Shown here: positions 52,660 through 63,884 of the stretch, piece by piece | Position numbering within the stretch: the first letter of the stretch is position 1 | How the letters are laid out: the number at the start of each line of letters is the position of its first letter | Assembly: GCF_014644455.1 (NCBI RefSeq) | Contig: NZ_BMKS01000001.1 | Coordinates: 379,409 to 443,408 of the forward strand | DNA: 64,000 bases | Source of the DNA: Caldovatus sediminis | Lineage (GTDB): Bacteria > Pseudomonadota > Alphaproteobacteria > Acetobacterales > Acetobacteraceae | Reading direction: 5' to 3' | The notes under the pieces: model-generated | Seen by the model: only the letters and a program-made list of their open reading frames with translations | What the model was told of the DNA's origin: nothing | The model's database searches: none | Program-made: the position numbers and the translations under genes

Positions 52660-52759
52660 GTCATCTCTCCGTGCCCCCCTTGGCGGCGACGCCGGACCTG
52701 GCGGATGATGCGGCGACGGAGACCCGATGGTCCCTTTCCACGCGGGGGAGCGAGCGAAC

Positions 52760-55120
52760 ATGGCGAAGTTCGGACTGAGCCAGCCGGTCCGGCGGATCGA
52801 GGACCCGAGACTCCTGCTCGGCCGCGGGCGCTACACCGACGACATCGCGCTGCCCGGCCAGGCCCACGGCGTCGTCCTGCGCAGCCCGCACGCGCACGCC
52901 CGCATCCTGCGCATCGACACGGCGGCGGCCGCAGCCCTGCCGGGCGTGCTCGGCGTCTTCACCGCGAAGGACCTGCGGGCGGAGGGCCTGGGCGAGCTGC
53001 CCTGCGCCATCCCCCTGCGCAACGCCGACGGCACGCCGCGCGCCGACACGCCGCACTACGCCCTCGCCGAGGACCGCGTGCGGTACGTCGGCGACCCGGT
53101 CGCCTTCGTCGTCGCGGAGACCGCCAAGGCCGCGCGCGACGCCGCCGAGGCGGTCGAGGTGGACTACGAGGTCCTGCCCTCCGTCACCGACCTCGCCACC
53201 GCGACCGAGCCCGGCCAGCCGCAGGTCTGGGACGCGGCGCGGAACAACGTCTGCTTCGACTGGGAGGCCGGCGACAGGGCCAAGGCCGACGCGCTGTTCG
53301 CGCAGGCCGCGCACGTGACGCGGCTCCGCGTCGTCAACAACCGCGTCGTCGTCGCCAGCATGGAAGCGCGCGCCGCCCTCGCCCTCTACGACGAGCAGGA
53401 CCGCGGCGGGCGGTTCACGCTCTACGCCAACACGCAGGGCTCCTGGCTGGTGCGCGGCCTGCTCGCCAACGCGGTTTTCAGGCTGCCGGAGGACCGCTTC
53501 CACGTCATCACGCCCGACGTCGGCGGCGGCTTCGGCATGAAGCTCTTCCTCTATCCCGAGCACGTGCTGGTCTGCTTCGCCGCGCGCCGCCTGAGGCGCC
53601 CGGTGAAGTGGACCTCCGAGCGCACCGAGGCCTTCCTCGCCGACACCCACGGCCGCGACAACGTCACCGAGGGCGAGCTCGCGCTCGACAAGGACGGGCG
53701 GTTCCTCGCGCTGCGCACGCGCAACCTCGCGAACATGGGCGCCTACCTCTCCACCTTCGCGCCGTTCATCCCGACCGGGGCGGGGACCAAGGTGCTGGCG
53801 AGCGTCTACGGATTCCAGGCGGTCCACGCGCGGGTGATCGGCGTGCTGACCAACACCGTCCCGGTGGACGCCTACCGGGGCGCCGGCAGGCCGGAGAGCA
53901 ACTACCTGGTCGAGCGCCTGATCGACACGGCGGCGCGCGAGCTCGGGATCGACCGGGTGGAGCTGCGCCGACGCAACATGGTGCCCCCGGATGCCATGCC
54001 CTTCGTCACCGCGATGGGGCAGCGCTACGATTCGGGCGACTTCCCCCGGGTCCTCGACGCCGCGCTGGCGAAGGCCGACTGGGCCGGCTTCCCCGCGCGC
54101 AGGGCGGAGGCGGCGCGGCGCGGCCGGCGGCGCGGCATCGGCCTCGCCTACTACCTCGAGGCGACCGGCGGCGACCCGACCGAGCGCGCCGCCGTGCGCT
54201 TCGCCGCGGACGGCATGGTCGAGGTCGTCGTCGGCACCCAGAGCACGGGCCAGGGGCACGAGACCGCCTACGCCATGCTCACCAGCCACGAGCTCGGCAT
54301 CCCGATGGAGAAGATCCGCATCGTGCAGGGCGATTCGGACTCGCTGCCGAGCGGCGGCGGCACGGGCGGGGCGCGCAGCCTCTACTCGGAGGGCCAGGCG
54401 ATCCTCGTCACCGCCGCTGCGGTCGTGGAGAAGGGGAAGCGGGCGGCGTCCGAGCACCTCGAGGCCGCGGTCGCCGACATCGAGTTCTCCGCCGCCGGCG
54501 GCGTGGGGCGGTTCGCCGTGGCCGGCACCGACCGCGCGGTGGACATCCTGACCCTCGCCCGCATCCAGCGCGAGAAGGCGGCGCGCGGCGAGGCCGCGAC
54601 GCAGCTCGACGCGGCGGAGCAGGCGCAGATCCAGGCCCACACCTTCCCGAACGGCTGCCACGTCGCGGAGGTGGAGGTGGATCCCGACACCGGCCGCGTC
54701 GAGATCGTGCGCTACGTCGTCGCCGACGACTTCGGCCACCCGCTCAACCCGCTGATCGCGCGCGGGCAGGTGCACGGCGGCGTCGCGCAGGGCGTCGGCC
54801 AGGCGATGCTGGAGCGCGCCGCCTACGACCCCGACAGCGGCCAGCTCCTCTCCGCGAGCTTCATGGACTATGCGCTCCCGCGCGCCGACGACCTGCCCGA
54901 CATCCAGGTGGACCTGCTGGAAATCCCCTGCGAGACCAACCCGCTCGGCGTCAAGGGCGCGGGCGAGGCGGGGGCGGTCGGCTCGCCGCCGGCGTTCGTC
55001 AACGCGCTGGTGGACGCGCTCGCCGAGGACGGCGTGCGCCACCTCGACATGCCGGCCACGCCCGAGGCGGTGTGGAGGGCGCTGGCGGCGGCCGGGGGCG
55101 GGGCGAGGCGGGCGGCCTGA
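52760..55120 (+). CDS. Xanthine dehydrogenase family molybdopterin-binding subunit (solitary)
   Basis: A 786-aa molybdenum hydroxylase large subunit. RRIEDPRLLLGRGRYTDDIA starts the N-terminal aldehyde-oxidase domain; the cofactor domain has DVGGGFGMKLFLYPEH (Gly-loop 255-261), PVDAYRGAGRPESNYLVERL (Tyr372), GTQSTGQGHETAYAMLTSHE and the catalytic Glu736 in GVKGAGEAGAVGSPPAFVNA. The active-site loop lacks the Cys of CO dehydrogenase (AYRGAGR instead of YRCSFR), so an aldehyde or N-heterocycle substrate is likelier than CO. The FAD and 2Fe-2S subunits usually encoded beside it are absent on both sides. Start ATG 52760 with GGGAG 10 nt upstream, preferred over ATG 52727. Confidence 0.94.
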   Translation: MAKFGLSQPVRRIEDPRLLLGRGRYTDDIALPGQAHGVVLRSPHAHARILRIDTAAAAALPGVLGVFTAKDLRAEGLGELPCAIPLRNADGTPRADTPHYALAEDRVRYVGDPVAFVVAETAKAARDAAEAVEVDYEVLPSVTDLATATEPGQPQVWDAARNNVCFDWEAGDRAKADALFAQAAHVTRLRVVNNRVVVASMEARAALALYDEQDRGGRFTLYANTQGSWLVRGLLANAVFRLPEDRFHVITPDVGGGFGMKLFLYPEHVLVCFAARRLRRPVKWTSERTEAFLADTHGRDNVTEGELALDKDGRFLALRTRNLANMGAYLSTFAPFIPTGAGTKVLASVYGFQAVHARVIGVLTNTVPVDAYRGAGRPESNYLVERLIDTAARELGIDRVELRRRNMVPPDAMPFVTAMGQRYDSGDFPRVLDAALAKADWAGFPARRAEAARRGRRRGIGLAYYLEATGGDPTERAAVRFAADGMVEVVVGTQSTGQGHETAYAMLTSHELGIPMEKIRIVQGDSDSLPSGGGTGGARSLYSEGQAILVTAAAVVEKGKRAASEHLEAAVADIEFSAAGGVGRFAVAGTDRAVDILTLARIQREKAARGEAATQLDAAEQAQIQAHTFPNGCHVAEVEVDPDTGRVEIVRYVVADDFGHPLNPLIARGQVHGGVAQGVGQAMLERAAYDPDSGQLLSASFMDYALPRADDLPDIQVDLLEIPCETNPLGVKGAGEAGAVGSPPAFVNALVDALAEDGVRHLDMPATPEAVWRALAAAGGGARRAA

Positions 55121-55148: not shown

Positions 55149-55937
55149 TCATCCGCGGTTGTTCGCCGCCTCGCCCGCTCCGCCCGGCAGCAGCTCCGGC
55201 GCGATCCGCCGGACGTGGCGCTCGACGGCGCGGTAGCACTCGCAGGCGCCGCGCTCGATCGGACGGCGGTCGCGCAGGACGATGCAGCCCCGCCGCTGGT
55301 CCAGCGCGCGCGCCTCCGCGAGGCCGGCGAGCACCCGGGTGACGGTGGTGCGCTGCACGCCGAGCATCTCGGCGAGGAACTCCTGCGTCAGCGGCAGCTC
55401 GTCCGTGCCGGCGCGGTCGTGGATCATCAGCAGCCAGCGGCAGGCGCGCGCCTCCACCGGATGCAGCGCGTTGCAGGCGGCCGACTGCATCACCTGGGCG
55501 AGCAGCAGGTCGGCGTAGCGCGCGAGCAGGCCGCGGAGCGGCGCGGAGGCGGCCTTGGCGGCCTCGAGCCGCGCGATGTCGATGCGCAGCGCGGGACCGG
55601 GCACCTGAACCTCGGCGCGCGCGGAGGCGAAATGCCGCCCGGCGCTGATGATGCCTCCGGCCGCGCCTTCGGCCCCGATGACCGCGACCTCCGCGACCCG
55701 GCCGTCGGACATCGCGCCGGCGAGCGAGATCACCGTGCCCGCGCAGGGAAAGTGGGAGAACGCGATCTCCTCGCCGGCCTCGAACAGCACCTGGCGCGGA
55801 GCGAGGTCCACAGGGACGAGGTGCGGCTCGAGCAGCGCGCGGTCCGCCTCGCGCATCGCGCCGATCAGCCGGTTGCCGCAGGCGGCGAGAGGGCACGTCT
55901 TCTCCTGCGCGCGCGGATCGGGGCGCGTCCCGTCCAT
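55149..55937 (-). CDS. Crp/Fnr family transcriptional regulator
   Basis: A 262-aa regulator with an N-terminal cupin-like sensor (RQVLFEAGEEIAFSHFPCAG, AEVAVIGAEGAAGGII) and a C-terminal winged helix (VEARACRWLLMIHDRAGTDE, LPLTQEFLAEMLGVQRTTVT, RVLAGLAEARALDQRRGCIV). The cNMP-binding Arg-Ser signature of Crp is not seen and the Fnr four-Cys cluster is not complete (KTCPLAACGNRL has two), so cAMP or Fe-S sensing is unlikely; this resembles the alphaproteobacterial Crp/Fnr group with unknown ligand. Start ATG 55937 with GAGGAGG about 10 nt upstream; the frame upstream to 56099 gives no family similarity. A matching palindrome lies ~100 bp upstream. Confidence 0.88.
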   Translation of the reverse strand: MDGTRPDPRAQEKTCPLAACGNRLIGAMREADRALLEPHLVPVDLAPRQVLFEAGEEIAFSHFPCAGTVISLAGAMSDGRVAEVAVIGAEGAAGGIISAGRHFASARAEVQVPGPALRIDIARLEAAKAASAPLRGLLARYADLLLAQVMQSAACNALHPVEARACRWLLMIHDRAGTDELPLTQEFLAEMLGVQRTTVTRVLAGLAEARALDQRRGCIVLRDRRPIERGACECYRAVERHVRRIAPELLPGGAGEAANNRG

Positions 55938-56036
55938 TCCTGCGAAGCCTCCTCGGGAGAAAACGGAAGCGGGTCGGCCGGTTGCAAGAACCGGGTGACG
56001 CCCGTGCGAGCCTTGCCACGCCGATGTGATGGCGTC

Positions 56037-56052
56037 TGTCGCGAAGGCGACA
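56037..56052. promoter_or_regulatory. Candidate Crp/Fnr-family operator
   Basis: TGTCG-CGAAGG-CGACA: an inverted repeat with the half-site spacing (N6) of Crp-family sites (TGTGA-N6-TCACA). It lies 100 bp upstream of the Crp/Fnr gene and 102 bp after the acs stop. Autoregulation by the 262-aa protein is inferred. Confidence 0.5.
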
Positions 56053-56153
56053 CAACGGGCCGGATCGGGTCGCGCGCGGGCTCGCTCCGCGGCCGGCACG
56101 ACCGCGGATCGGCCGGCGCGCCGCGGCGGCGCGGCACGCCGGCGCGGCGGCGG

Positions 56154-58097
<1,944 letters not shown>

Positions 58098-59557: not shown

Positions 59558-60076
59558 ATGCTGGTCCACGGGAGCTGCGCCGCGCGCAATGGGGAGGCGG
59601 TCCTGTTCCTCGGCCCTCCGGGCGCGGGGAAGTCCGATCTCGTCCTGCGCCTGCTGGATCGGCCTGGCTGGCGCCTGGTGGCCGACGACCAGGTGCGGCT
59701 GACGCCCGAGGAGGCGGCGGACGATGCGGGGCCGGCGCCGCCGCAGGCGCGGCGCGGCGCCCTGCGCGCCGAGCCCGCGCCCGCCTTGCGCGGCATGCTG
59801 GAGGTGCGCGGCCTCGGCCTGTTCGCCGACCTGCCGGTGGAGGCCGGGGCGCGGCTGTGCCTCGCCGTCGAGTGCACGGCGAGCCGCGACGCCGTTCCGC
59901 GCCTGCCGGAGCCCGCGCGCTTCGCCTGCGGCCGCCTCTCGGTCCCGCTGGTGCGGCTGCACGCCCTCGACGGGTCCGCCCCCAGCAAGGTGGAATGGGC
60001 GCTCGACGCCGCGACGGCGCGGACGCGGATGCGGGCCGGCGCCTTCGAAACCGTCGCCGCCGGCGCGGGACGCTGA
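59558..60076 (+). CDS. hprK: HPr kinase/phosphorylase, short alphaproteobacterial form
   Basis: A 172-aa HprK that has only the catalytic domain; the N-terminal half of Gram-positive HprK is missing, as is usual in alphaproteobacteria. Walker A is GPPGAGKS at 19-26, VADDQVRL follows, and the HPrK signature is MLEVRGLGLFADLPVEAG. It phosphorylates (and dephosphorylates) a Ser of HPr, here probably Ser90 of the gene at 61625. Start ATG 59558. First gene of the PTS unit: rapZ begins 2 bp after its stop. Confidence 0.93.
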   Translation: MLVHGSCAARNGEAVLFLGPPGAGKSDLVLRLLDRPGWRLVADDQVRLTPEEAADDAGPAPPQARRGALRAEPAPALRGMLEVRGLGLFADLPVEAGARLCLAVECTASRDAVPRLPEPARFACGRLSVPLVRLHALDGSAPSKVEWALDAATARTRMRAGAFETVAAGAGR

Positions 60077-60078
60077 GC

Positions 60079-61080
60079 ATGGACGCCCTGCCGCCGCCCG
60101 GCGGCGCGCCGCCGGCCCGCCCCGCCCCGCGCCCGTTCGTGCTGGTGACCGGCCTGTCGGGGGCCGGCAAGGCCTCGATCCTCCGGGCGCTGGAGGACCT
60201 CGGCTTCGAGACGGTGGACAACCCGCCGCTCGCGGTGCTGGAGGCGCTGGTCGGCGACGGCGACCTGCCGCTCGCCGCGGGCATCGACAGCCGGACCCGC
60301 GACTTCGATCCGGCCGCCGCCCTGCGGCTTCTGGAGCGGCTGCGCCGGCGCCCCGAGATCGCGGTCGCCCTGGTCTTCGCCACCGCGGAGGAGGGCGTGC
60401 TGCTGCGCCGCTACACGGAGACCCGCCGGCGCCACCCGCTCGCCCCGGGCGGGCCGCTCGGCAGCCGCGTGGCCGACGGCATCGCGCGGGAGGCGGCGCT
60501 GCTCGGGCCGCTGCGCGAGGTGGCGGACTGGGTGATCGACACCTCGGAGCTGCCGCTGCCCGAGCTCAGGCGGATGATCGCGCGCCGCTTCCAGGGCGAG
60601 GCCGCGGCGGGCGCCGGGCTGGCGATCACCGTCGTCTCCTTCGCCTATTCGAGGGGGCTGCCGCGCGAGGCGGACCTGGTGTTCGACCTGCGGTTCCTGC
60701 GCAACCCGCACTACGATCCGGCGCTGCGGCCGCGGACCGGCCGCGACCCGGCGGTGGCCGCGCACATCGAGGCCGATCCCGGCTTCGCGCCATTCTGGGA
60801 GCGCATGACGGCCTTCCTCGACCCGCTGTTGCCCCGCTACGTGGCGGAGGGGAAGAAGTACCTCACGATTGCGCTCGGCTGCACCGGCGGCCGGCACCGG
60901 TCGGTGCTTGTGGCGGAGCGCCTGGCGAACCATCTCTTGCGGCAAGGCTGGCGGGCCGAGACCGTCCACCGCGAGTTGGCGGGGGCGGCGCCCGGGAACG
61001 ACGACGCGCAAGGCGGCGGCGCCCCCACCGGGACGGCCCAGCCCATGACGGGGCGGGAGGCCCTTTTGTACATCCCATGA
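60079..61080 (+). CDS. rapZ: RNase adapter / nucleotide-binding protein RapZ
   Basis: A 333-aa RapZ/YvcJ-family P-loop protein. Walker A is GLSGAGKAS (25-33), DLGFETVDNPPLAVLEAL and SRTRDFDP follow, and the C-terminal domain has SFAYSRGLPREADLVFDLRF, RFLRNPHYDPALRPRTGRD, LTIALGCTGGRHRSVLVAER. In enterobacteria RapZ targets small RNAs for decay and controls glucosamine-6-phosphate supply; in alphaproteobacteria its role is less known. Its stop overlaps the IIA gene start by 4 bp (ATGA). Pro-rich N-terminus of ~18 residues precedes the P-loop. Confidence 0.95.
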   Translation: MDALPPPGGAPPARPAPRPFVLVTGLSGAGKASILRALEDLGFETVDNPPLAVLEALVGDGDLPLAAGIDSRTRDFDPAAALRLLERLRRRPEIAVALVFATAEEGVLLRRYTETRRRHPLAPGGPLGSRVADGIAREAALLGPLREVADWVIDTSELPLPELRRMIARRFQGEAAAGAGLAITVVSFAYSRGLPREADLVFDLRFLRNPHYDPALRPRTGRDPAVAAHIEADPGFAPFWERMTAFLDPLLPRYVAEGKKYLTIALGCTGGRHRSVLVAERLANHLLRQGWRAETVHRELAGAAPGNDDAQGGGAPTGTAQPMTGREALLYIP

Positions 61081-61628
61081 TCGGCCTCGTACTGGTCACC
61101 CACGGCCGCCTGGCCGAGGAGCTTCGGCACGCCATGGAGCACGTGGTGGGGCCGCAACGCGGCGTCGCCACGGTGTGCATCGGCCCCGAAGACGACATCG
61201 AGGACAGGCGCGCCGACATCCGCGAGTGCATCCGCGCGGTGGACGAAGGCGACGGCGTCGTGGTGCTGACCGACATCCTGGGCGGCACGCCGTCGAACCT
61301 CGCCATGTCGCTGCTCGACCAGCGCCCGGACGTGGAGGTGATCGCGGGGGTGAACCTGCCCCTGCTGGTGAAGCTCGCCAAGGTGCGCGGCAGCGAACCG
61401 CTGGCCGAGGCGGTGGACCACGCGCAGACGGCGGGCCGGAAGTACATCGCCTGCGGCTCCGAGATGCTGAACGGCCATGCGCCGTTGCCGCCCGGCGCGG
61501 CGCGCGGCCGCGGTCGCGCCCCGGCGCAGCCGGAGCCGCCGGTCGTGCCGGCCGAGGGCGGTGCCGACATGGCCGCCGCGGCGAGGGGCCGCGCCGCGCC
61601 GCGGGAAGCGGGGCGGCGCTCGCCGTGA
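61077..61628 (+). CDS. PTS system IIA component, mannose (ManX) type, regulatory
   Basis: A 183-aa IIA-Man-fold protein. The phospho-acceptor is His9 in MIGLVLVTHGRLAEELRHAM, and VVVLTDILGGTPSNLAMSLL is the conserved active-site loop. After ~125 residues a Pro/Ala/Gly/Arg-rich tail of ~55 residues (GHAPLPPGAARGRGRAPAQP onward) extends the normal domain. With no IIB or IIC subunit in the cluster, it is likely a signal output of the phosphorelay, not a sugar transporter part. Start ATG 61077 overlaps rapZ; its stop overlaps the HPr GTG start. Confidence 0.92.
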   Translation: MIGLVLVTHGRLAEELRHAMEHVVGPQRGVATVCIGPEDDIEDRRADIRECIRAVDEGDGVVVLTDILGGTPSNLAMSLLDQRPDVEVIAGVNLPLLVKLAKVRGSEPLAEAVDHAQTAGRKYIACGSEMLNGHAPLPPGAARGRGRAPAQPEPPVVPAEGGADMAAAARGRAAPREAGRRSP

Positions 61629-62023
61629 GCGCCCCCCCTTCCGGTCCGCGCGGGCCCGAAGAGGCCGCCGCGGCAGCCATCCAGGGCGGGGGCGAGCCCG
61701 AACCGCGGCGCGAGGACTGCGGCTGCGCGCCCGCCCCCGACGCGGCGGACGCGCTGGTGCTGCGCCGGACCGTGGCCATCCGCAACAGCCGCGGGCTGCA
61801 CGCCCGCGCCGCGGCGAAGCTGGCGACGCTGGCGGAGCGCTACTCGGCCTGCGTGCGCATCACGCGCGGCGGGCAGAGCGTCCCGGCCTGCTCGATCATG
61901 GGGCTGATGATGCTCGGCGCCGGACAGGGCAGCGAGATCACGATCGAGGCCGAGGGCTGGGACGCCAAGGAGGCGCTCGAGGCGATCGCCGGCCTGATCG
62001 AGGCCGGCTTCCATGAAAGCTGA
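61625..62023 (+). CDS. HPr-like phosphocarrier protein with N-terminal extension
   Basis: A 132-aa HPr. The core (about 45-132) has phospho-acceptor His59 in IRNSRGLHARAAAKLATLAE and, 31 residues later, Ser90 in PACSIMGLMMLGAGQG, exactly the His15/Ser46 spacing of classical HPr, so both EI and HprK sites are kept. The first ~44 residues are an unusual extension, Gly/Pro/Glu-rich with REDCGCAPAP (Cys32, Cys34). The start is GTG 61625, overlapping the IIA stop (GTGA). It overlaps enzyme I by 11 bp at the 3' end. Confidence 0.93.
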   Translation: MSAPPSGPRGPEEAAAAAIQGGGEPEPRREDCGCAPAPDAADALVLRRTVAIRNSRGLHARAAAKLATLAERYSACVRITRGGQSVPACSIMGLMMLGAGQGSEITIEAEGWDAKEALEAIAGLIEAGFHES

Positions 62024-63884
62024 CCCCGACGCCGAGACCGTCGTGTCGGCGCCGCGCGGCGCCGACGGGCGCGCACGGGCCGGTTCGCCCCATGGCCGCC
62101 GCGGGGCGGCGCGCGAGACGCGGCTCAAGGGCATCCCGGTCTCGCCGGGCATCGCCATCGGCGCGATCTTCGACACCACCGAGGCGCCGGCCGAGGCGCC
62201 GCGCCGCAGCATCACCGCCGCCGAGGTCGAGGCCGAGCGACAGCGCCTGGCCGAGGCGGTCGCCGCCTCGCGCAAGCAGGTGGCGAAGCTCAAGACGCGC
62301 ATCGGCGTGCTGCCGGAGGAGGCGCAGGAGGAACTCTCGCCGCTGCTCGACGCCTACGCGATGATGCTCGCCAACTCCCGGCTCATCCGCGGCGCCCGCA
62401 AGCGCATCGAGAGCGACCTGGTCGCCGCCGAGACCGCGGTGCAGGACGAGGCGGAGAGCATCGCCGCGGCGATCCTCGCCACGCGCGACGACGACAAGAC
62501 CGGACTGCTGCGGCGCGCCCAGGAGGTGCGCGAGATCGCCCGGCGGCTGACGCGCAACCTCACCGCCCTGCCCTTCCGCGCTCTCAAGGACATCCCGCAG
62601 GGTGCGATCCTGATCGCCGAGGAGCTGACGCCGGCGGACGCCGCCCTGCTCAACCCCGCGCGCATCGCAGGCGTCGCCACCGAGGAGGGCGGCGCCGACG
62701 GCCACACCGCGATCATGCTGCGCGCGCTCGGCATCCCCTCCGTCCTCGGCTGCCACGGGCTGACGGGCACGGCGCGGCGCGGCGATCCCTGCGTGCTCGA
62801 CGGCACGGCGGGCACGGTGGCGCTGAACCCCTCCCCGGCGACGCTCGCCGCGGCGCGCGAGTCGCTCGCCGCCTTCGCGCGGGAGCGGGCGAAGCTCGCC
62901 AAGCTGCGGCGTCTGCCGGCGGTCACCACCGACGGGGAGGAGGTGGAGCTCCAGGCCAACCTGGAGATCCCGGCGGAGCTGCCGCTGATCGCGCAGGCGG
63001 GCGCGCAGGGCATCGGCCTGCTGCGCACCGAGTTCCTGTTCATGAACCGCGAGGACCTGCCCGACGAGGAGGCGCAGGTCGCGGCCTACGCCGAGATCCT
63101 CGAGGCGATGGACGGCGAGCCCGTCACCATCCGCGTCCTCGACTGGGGCGGCGAGAAGGACATCGAGGCGCTGGCCGAGGGCATACCCGCGCTGGGCGGG
63201 CCGAACCCGGCGCTCGGCCTGCGCGGCGTGCGGATGCTGCTGAAGCGGCCGGAGCTGCTCGAGGTGCAGTTCGCCGCCATCCTGCGCGTGGCGGCGAAGG
63301 GCCCGGTGCGCATCCTGCTGCCGATGGTCACCATCCCGGCCGAGGTGAAGCAGGCGCGCGAGATCTACGAGCGCGTCGCCCGCCGCCTGCGCCGCCGCGG
63401 CGAGAGGCTGCCCGACCCCCTGCCGCCGCTCGGCGCGATGATCGAGACGCCGGGCGCGGCCCTGGCGGCGGACGCGATCGCGCTGGAGGCCGACTTCTTC
63501 GCCATCGGCACCAACGACCTCGCCATGTACACGCTGGCGGTGGACCGCTCGGAGGCGGAGGTCGCGCACCTCTACGATCCGCTGCACCCGGCGGTGCTGC
63601 GGCTCGTGCAGTTCTCCACCGAGGCGGCGCTGCGGCTGCGCATGCCGGTCTCGGTCTGCGGCGAGATGGCGGGCAATCCGCGCCTGGTGCCGCTGCTGCT
63701 CGGCCTCGGGATCCGCTCGCTCTCGATGAACGCGAGCGCGATCCCGCGCGCGAAGCAGGCGGTGCGTTCGCTCGACATCGCCGACTGCGCCCGCTTCGCG
63801 CGGCGCGTGATGGAGCAGAGCGACCCGGCGCGGATCCAGGAGCTGGTGATGGGCTTCGCCGAGGGCCTGACCGAGCGGGCCTGA
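62013..63884 (+). CDS. ptsP: Phosphoenolpyruvate-protein phosphotransferase (enzyme I)
   Basis: A 623-aa enzyme I that transfers phosphate from PEP to HPr. It lacks the GAF domain of EI-Ntr. N-terminal ~38 residues are an Arg/Ala-rich extension; the HPr-binding domain follows (SPGIAIGAIFDTTEAPAEAP). The phospho-His is His231 in EEGGADGHTAIMLRALGIPS. The PEP-binding barrel has GIGLLRTEFLFMNREDLPDE, DWGGEKDIEALAEGIPALGG, MIETPGAALAADAIALEADF, AIGTNDLAMYTLAVDRSEAE and the proton donor Cys549 in MPVSVCGEMAGNPRLVPLLL. Start ATG 62013 is within the HPr gene. Last gene of the unit. Both ptsP and ptsI have been used as names for such proteins. Confidence 0.95.
   Translation: MKADPDAETVVSAPRGADGRARAGSPHGRRGAARETRLKGIPVSPGIAIGAIFDTTEAPAEAPRRSITAAEVEAERQRLAEAVAASRKQVAKLKTRIGVLPEEAQEELSPLLDAYAMMLANSRLIRGARKRIESDLVAAETAVQDEAESIAAAILATRDDDKTGLLRRAQEVREIARRLTRNLTALPFRALKDIPQGAILIAEELTPADAALLNPARIAGVATEEGGADGHTAIMLRALGIPSVLGCHGLTGTARRGDPCVLDGTAGTVALNPSPATLAAARESLAAFARERAKLAKLRRLPAVTTDGEEVELQANLEIPAELPLIAQAGAQGIGLLRTEFLFMNREDLPDEEAQVAAYAEILEAMDGEPVTIRVLDWGGEKDIEALAEGIPALGGPNPALGLRGVRMLLKRPELLEVQFAAILRVAAKGPVRILLPMVTIPAEVKQAREIYERVARRLRRRGERLPDPLPPLGAMIETPGAALAADAIALEADFFAIGTNDLAMYTLAVDRSEAEVAHLYDPLHPAVLRLVQFSTEAALRLRMPVSVCGEMAGNPRLVPLLLGLGIRSLSMNASAIPRAKQAVRSLDIADCARFARRVMEQSDPARIQELVMGFAEGLTERA

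Follow-up and report, generated by a model that had tools for sequence, protein, structure and literature searches.

Tail and core cysteines in the HPr of Caldovatus sediminis and related Acetobacteraceae: a possible redox- or metal-responsive site beside the regulatory serine

Why does the phosphocarrier HPr of Caldovatus sediminis (Acetobacteraceae) carry a 44-residue N-terminal extension with a Cys-Gly-Cys motif? The protein is encoded in a five-gene operon of the phosphoenolpyruvate (PEP)-dependent phosphotransferase system (PTS), which lies in a 64,000-nucleotide stretch of contig NZ_BMKS01000001.1 (positions 379,409 to 443,408 of the forward strand; assembly GCF_014644455.1), termed the window hereafter. 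The HPr possesses four cysteines in total, Cys32 and Cys34 in the extension and Cys76 and Cys89 in the core, and Cys89 directly precedes the regulatory serine Ser90. In relatives of the same family, the motif of the extension was always accompanied by both core cysteines, and this kept set of four, with one member beside Ser90, may point to a switch that responds to redox state or metal. The lineage-specific cysteines of the HPr tail are the actual finding at this locus; the gene order and the long tail of the neighboring EIIA turned out to be ordinary.

The operon consists of hprK, rapZ and the genes for EIIA-Man, HPr and enzyme I (EI), all on the + strand between positions 59558 and 63884 of the window; the coordinates of these genes were verified. 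The features are as follows:

59558..60076, + strand: hprK-like gene, truncated alphaproteobacterial HPr kinase; 172 amino acids, Pfam Hpr_kinase_C
60079..61080, + strand: rapZ, RNase adapter family; 333 amino acids, NF003828 at 294.4 bits (cut-off 244)
61077..61628, + strand: EIIA of the mannose family (ManX/PtsM) with His9; 183 amino acids, Pfam EIIA-man at residues 3-116
61625..62023, + strand: HPr, GTG start; 132 amino acids, Pfam PTS-HPr at residues 47-126, HPr fold predicted by AlphaFold2
61625..61756, + strand: N-terminal extension of HPr, residues 1-44, predicted to be disordered
61718..61726, + strand: Cys32-Gly33-Cys34 motif within the extension, read from the sequence
61850..61852, + strand: codon of Cys76 (position 32 in standard HPr numbering), read from the sequence
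61889..61894, + strand: codons of Cys89 and Ser90, the latter at the site targeted by HprK (Ser46 of the standard scheme), read from the sequence
62013..63884, + strand: EI; 623 amino acids, domains PEP-utilisers_N, PEP-utilizers and PEP-utilizers_C

A gap of 2 bp separates hprK and rapZ, and the following junctions are an ATGA overlap (rapZ/EIIA-Man), a GTGA overlap (EIIA-Man stop/HPr start) and an overlap of 11 bp (HPr/EI). The five genes with their gap and overlaps had been listed in a preliminary description made from the DNA letters, as had His59, Ser90, the 44-residue extension and the Cys-Gly-Cys motif of HPr, and the coordinates, the Pfam domains and the protein sequence bear out all of this. 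The hprK product is a weak match to Pfam Hpr_kinase_C (38.1 bits versus a cut-off of 33.3) and scores far below the cut-off of 240 with the NCBIfam model HprK TIGR00679 (40.8 bits); according to a study on Brucella melitensis, HprK proteins of alphaproteobacteria lack N- and C-terminal portions of the firmicute protein (PMC2937029). The rapZ product matches both the N and the C domain of RapZ in Pfam. HPr itself is recognized by PF00381 (98.1 bits) and TIGR01003 (92 bits, cut-off 47.9), with the catalytic His59 in GLHAR and the regulatory Ser90 in SIMG(L/V). It thus shares the fold, the catalytic histidine and the regulatory serine of the HPr/NPr family (PF00381), but differs in its disordered 44-residue tail with the motif and in the two core cysteines at the hairpin by the regulatory serine.

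The assembly, of which the window occupies part of contig C1, has 4.8 Mb and is 98.55% complete. It encodes one HPr, one EIIA-Man and one full-length EI; two large open frames elsewhere in the genome, which we take to encode PEP synthase or pyruvate phosphate dikinase, account for three further EI matches, all of them partial (26.7, 62.1 and 81.4 bits). No match to PTS_EIIC (PF02378), EII-Sor (PF03609) or PTS_EIIA_2/PtsN (PF00359) was found in the genome, while control genomes gave positive results for all three; the search did not extend to the families EIIB, EIID and EIIA-Glc. The label "permease-less" given to this PTS at the outset therefore holds for the families tested, and EIIA-Man is the sole EIIA among the two EIIA families searched (EIIA-Man and PF00359). 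Since HPr, EI and EIIA-Man are each single and PTS_EIIC, EII-Sor and PtsN gave no match, the relay probably has a regulatory role. The system differs from a strict PTS-Ntr in two respects: the N-terminal GAF domain that characterizes EI-Ntr gave no Pfam match in EI, and no PtsN acceptor was found in the genome.

The HPr proteins of 163 genomes of the family, representing 45 genera, were compared; they comprise 30 loci from a first search, 26 plus 79 (family-wide search, the 79 from better-scoring places) and 28 later ones. Extra sampling was aimed at the genera g126, g69 and g96, picked for their varying motif. The motif was called in the reading frame rather than from the chosen start because some script-chosen starts are doubtful (e.g., L141 and L168), and it was defined as Cys-x-Cys or Cys-x-x-Cys located 10-34 residues before the catalytic histidine (CxC in the following). 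CxC was present in 57 of the 163 HPr proteins and in nine of the 45 genera; this ratio gives no frequency for the family since most of the lower-scoring matches of the family-wide search, in which 334 of 397 genomes matched at an E-value of 1e-20, were left unread. The variants are CGC (51), CSC (2), CNC (2) and CISC (2), and the last cysteine of the motif is 19-28 residues away from the catalytic histidine. In the extension of 41 aligned CxC proteins, Met1 and the two cysteines are the sole invariant residues; as these rows had been selected for CxC, the invariance shows just that nothing else is kept. Both other genomes of the window's genus have the motif as well: among the three, CGC belongs to the 10 of 44 tail residues that are identical, compared to 73 of 88 in the rest of the protein. 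The cysteine codons of the 55 three-residue motifs are TGC in 101 and TGT in nine cases and the middle glycine is encoded by four codons; conservation of the motif is thus at the protein level. Conservation of the cysteines in close homologs, on which the earlier proposal of a functional tail had been staked, is therefore borne out within the genus and beyond it.

CxC was also looked for outside the sampled genomes. Among 80 named loci, which partly belong to the same species as the sampled genomes and were not counted in the 163, seven have CxC, and all seven possess Cys76 and Cys89. These seven come from Roseomonas-like bacteria, which we place in the Acetobacteraceae; one of them carries the family in its title. 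In the class-wide search, in which 251 of 385 genomes had profile matches, CxC was absent from all 29 loci read besides that of the window (28 of them outside the family), and a class-wide occurrence of the motif was rejected; among the matches listed, most start past the CxC columns (approximately 27-29 of the model) and some start earlier. A second N-terminal motif, Met-Asn/Thr-Glu-Trp-Pro, was observed in 50 of the 163 HPr proteins from five genera (e.g., L032, L037, L041 and L211); 11 of these 50 lack CxC, and the motif is missing from the window's genus.

Both Cys76 and Cys89 are present in 57 of 57 CxC proteins. Among the 106 HPr proteins without CxC, 20 have Cys76 only, nine have Cys89 only and 34 have neither, so that 63 of 106 miss one or both. 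Both positions were located by a constant distance from the histidine, a procedure that misreads rows with an insertion such as L021. The HPr of this locus (genome G033) contains a hairpin insertion before the regulatory serine; the serine is present, and the offset reading gives alanine. L021 is accordingly the exception among the 135 relatives in which the serine was sought at the fixed offset, the other 134 having it there. In genus g126, all 15 CxC proteins have Cys89, and of the 16 without CxC, 15 have valine at this position and one, with a single tail cysteine, has Cys89. The 15 Val89 rows resemble one lineage, five of them standing in one starred clade, and therefore reflect few events. 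In genus g96, the three HPr proteins without CxC have His76 and Val89. Cys89 alone is not special to this group, as several named loci from outside the family also have it (e.g., L091, L102 and L109). There was no sign of a linked cysteine in the partner proteins: EI matches contain 0.96 cysteines on average with CxC and 0.95 without, and EIIA matches contain 1.8 and 2.9, respectively. The co-occurrence of the four cysteines in HPr supports a link between those of the tail and those of the core.

Whether the cysteines evolve together was assessed on trees calculated from two other proteins of the operon, EIIA and EI, with HPr excluded; the trees were made with a quick method and contain many weak branches. 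Rows with short flanks were left out, four for the 131-row tree and six, one of which bore CxC, for the 157-row tree. The 131-row tree requires a minimum of 11 changes of CxC; on the 157-row tree, the minimum numbers of changes are 15 for CxC, 5 for Cys89 and 11 for Cys76. Applied to all 131 rows of the first tree, Pagel's test gave a p-value of 1.1e-5, which is inflated by a deep split that separates groups having these cysteines from groups lacking them, and for this reason weight is placed on the subclade tests. In a subclade of 128 rows, the test of CxC versus both core cysteines yielded a likelihood ratio of 12.3 (chi-square p 0.015), a value that none of the 200 data sets simulated under independence reached; in the fitted model, the core pair is lost at a rate of 0.28 with CxC and 1.44 without. 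For Cys76 alone, the likelihood ratio in this subclade was 10.6 (p 0.031). A smaller subclade of 102 rows gave p-values of 0.010 for both core cysteines, 0.021 for Cys76 and 0.027 for Cys89, and none of the independent contrasts went in the wrong direction for CxC versus Cys76 or Cys89. Correlated evolution of CxC and the core cysteines is thus moderately supported by these comparisons.

AlphaFold2 predicts a confident HPr fold for residues 46-131, with block means of 96-98 over residues 51-120, and the best PDB matches of the model are HPr proteins (3le1, 3ihs and 1poh among relatives; target TM-score 0.93-0.94 for the best three). The model contains strands at residues 75-81 and 84-87 with a turn at 82-83. 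From the strand register around this two-residue turn, residues 76 and 89 should face each other, so that Cys76 and Cys89 would occupy paired positions of the hairpin. The tail might reach this edge, although no seat is predicted for it there.

The best reading of these data, to which we assign a probability of roughly 0.4, is a regulatory, transport-free PTS in which a four-cysteine site of HPr acts as a gate on Ser90 or His59. By analogy with characterized systems, EI would take the phosphate from PEP and pass it to His59 of HPr and on to His9 of EIIA-Man, whose phosphorylation state would signal carbon or energy status, and the truncated HprK would phosphorylate Ser90 and thereby slow the relay. 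The flexible CxC tail is proposed to fold back onto the edge of the HPr sheet that bears Cys76 and Cys89, and the four cysteines would form a metal- or disulfide-based site adjoining Ser90, which may expose HPr to HprK (or EI) or shield it from them depending on redox state or metal supply. Because AlphaFold2 leaves the tail disordered, such a site, and with it the gating role, is only inferred.

Several observations speak against a four-cysteine site. AlphaFold2 finds no order in the tail, with mean confidence values (pLDDT) of 60, 50, 48 and 55 for the blocks of residues 1-40, and in a short-tailed relative, the mean pLDDT is 44 over residues 11-20, where the motif occupies residues 17-19. 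The core pair does not require CxC, since 43 HPr proteins have both Cys76 and Cys89 without it, and tails with one cysteine are also found together with both core cysteines. In the 128-row subclade, CxC versus Cys89 alone gave a likelihood ratio of 6.4 and a p-value of 0.17, and the simulations were fitted with 400 optimizer steps compared to 900 for the data, which may slightly lower the simulated ratios. An independent-pairs test was not significant; it had one to four informative pairs and gave no p-value below 0.125. Finally, a literature search for HPr in combination with cysteine, redox or metal, which had most subscription journals outside its scope, returned no cysteine-tailed HPr as judged by titles and the beginnings of abstracts.

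Alternatively, the CxC tail might serve as a docking site or covalent tether for a partner or cofactor, such as a metal chaperone or a thioredoxin-like protein. It would then act separately from the core cysteines Cys76 and Cys89, and these would be kept by packing or descent. The predicted disorder of the tail fits this proposal, as it is typical for short linear motifs, and so does the second tail motif, which 11 of its 50 bearers have without CxC; the 43 proteins with the core pair and no CxC point in the same direction. Against it, CxC was invariably accompanied by Cys76 and Cys89 in the 57 proteins, and the fitted loss rate of this pair is lower where CxC is present; we regard a tether of this kind as rather unlikely.

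Neutral inheritance would require no function at all: Cys76 and Cys89 would have been present in a Roseomonas-like lineage before CxC arose there, and CxC would now be drifting away in several genera. The repeated changes of CxC on both trees suggest that the motif is easily lost or regained, and the independent-pairs result agrees with this explanation. On the other hand, the two cysteines are, next to Met1, all that is invariant in a fast-changing tail rich in proline, alanine and glycine (in the 41 rows chosen for CxC), CGC is among the few identical tail residues of the window's genus, and no independence simulation matched the observed likelihood ratio. We likewise regard mere descent as a rather unlikely explanation for the motif.

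All readings in which the tail has a function depend on its translation. In 55 of 57 CxC proteins, an NTGA start codon precedes the motif by no more than 60 codons. For 46 of them, the start chosen by the script was tallied, and in 35 it overlaps the stop codon of EIIA at the usual offset of -3. No ATG, GTG or TTG lies between the motif and the HPr domain in seven of the 57; the other 50 have at least one in frame, which makes an additional short form of HPr possible. That the native protein begins solely at such an internal start near residue 44-46, with the tail outside the protein, is very improbable, since the would-be start residue is variable in the alignment rows (Leu, Met, Ile or His) and the cysteines are kept despite synonymous codon changes, even though 35 of the 50 proteins have an internal ATG. 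The tail is in all likelihood translated, and the internal start that had been named as a refutation of the original proposal is not borne out. That proposal is thus partly supported: the tail cysteines are kept and the extension is probably translated, the EIIA tail lacks conservation, and the gene order is ordinary. Cys76 and Cys89 had not been mentioned in it, and the possible coupling to redox state or metal now has better grounds than before.

Of the 50 named loci that span at least 18 kb, 36 have the order hprK-rapZ-IIA-HPr-EI, for which reason it was rejected as an unusual trait, and 41 have hprK-rapZ-IIA-HPr. The closest named relatives are Neoroseomonas, Siccirubricoccus, Roseomonas and Roseococcus. 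The low-complexity C-terminal tail of EIIA-Man, which comprises approximately 60 residues (61 counted from YIA), is indeed long, as had been noted before; its length could be determined in 151 of the 163 loci, with a median of 25 and a range of 13-70. It is not conserved, however: within the window's genus, the tails have 61, 70 and 55 residues and their letters differ too, and the EIIA tail was therefore rejected as a functional feature.

The closest described counterpart is the incomplete PTS of B. melitensis, which includes EI-Ntr, NPr, EIIA-Ntr, an EIIA-Man-like protein and HprK; there, phosphate passes from PEP via EI and the histidine of NPr to His9 of EIIA-Man, and the conserved serine is a substrate of a truncated HprK (PMC2937029). 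Both systems have the genes for HprK, EIIA-Man and HPr/NPr in a row, a truncated HprK, no permease and sahH downstream of the PTS genes, and the relay to the HPr histidine and His9 of EIIA-Man is shared, in C. sediminis by homology. By comparison with Brucella, EI is encoded inside the C. sediminis operon and lacks a GAF domain, rapZ is placed between hprK and the EIIA gene, PtsN has no match in the genome, and the HPr histidine is at position 59 instead of 30. A CxC tail is not discussed in the Brucella paper, whose two uses of "cysteine" concern EIIB and a reference title. A review describes, for the alphaproteobacterial PTS-Ntr, ptsO downstream of manX, hprK upstream, most members without EIIB/EIIC and ptsN in the rpoN operon (PMC13104625); the manX/ptsO/hprK arrangement is shared by C. 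sediminis, in which ptsN was not found, and the words cysteine and redox do not occur in the review. Within the scope of the literature search, there was also no paper on HPr in Roseomonas or on HprK in Acetobacteraceae.

In C. sediminis, a gene for S-adenosylhomocysteine hydrolase follows EI on the same strand beyond the end of the window (L197:4993-6390, contig C1); sahH is located downstream in 17 of the 50 long named loci, within the fetched flanks. Upstream of the operon, the gene at 55149-56099 (- strand), which encodes a Crp-type helix-turn-helix, adjoins an acetyl-CoA synthetase-like gene (56154-58097, - strand), and an open frame at 52727-55120 (+ strand) encodes molybdopterin-binding domains of the xanthine dehydrogenase kind.

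For these Acetobacteraceae, it is conceivable, if still a tentative idea, that the cysteine-tailed HPr is a metal- or redox-sensing phosphocarrier through which this status would be written directly into the PTS relay, a role for which the literature search brought up no precedent. Conserved cysteines next to the serine that HprK targets would offer a concrete handle on how redox or metal input may enter a transport-free PTS, beyond PEP, ATP and related metabolites. If the tail should prove inert, it would still be a clean case of a disordered terminal addition on a much-studied bacterial protein.

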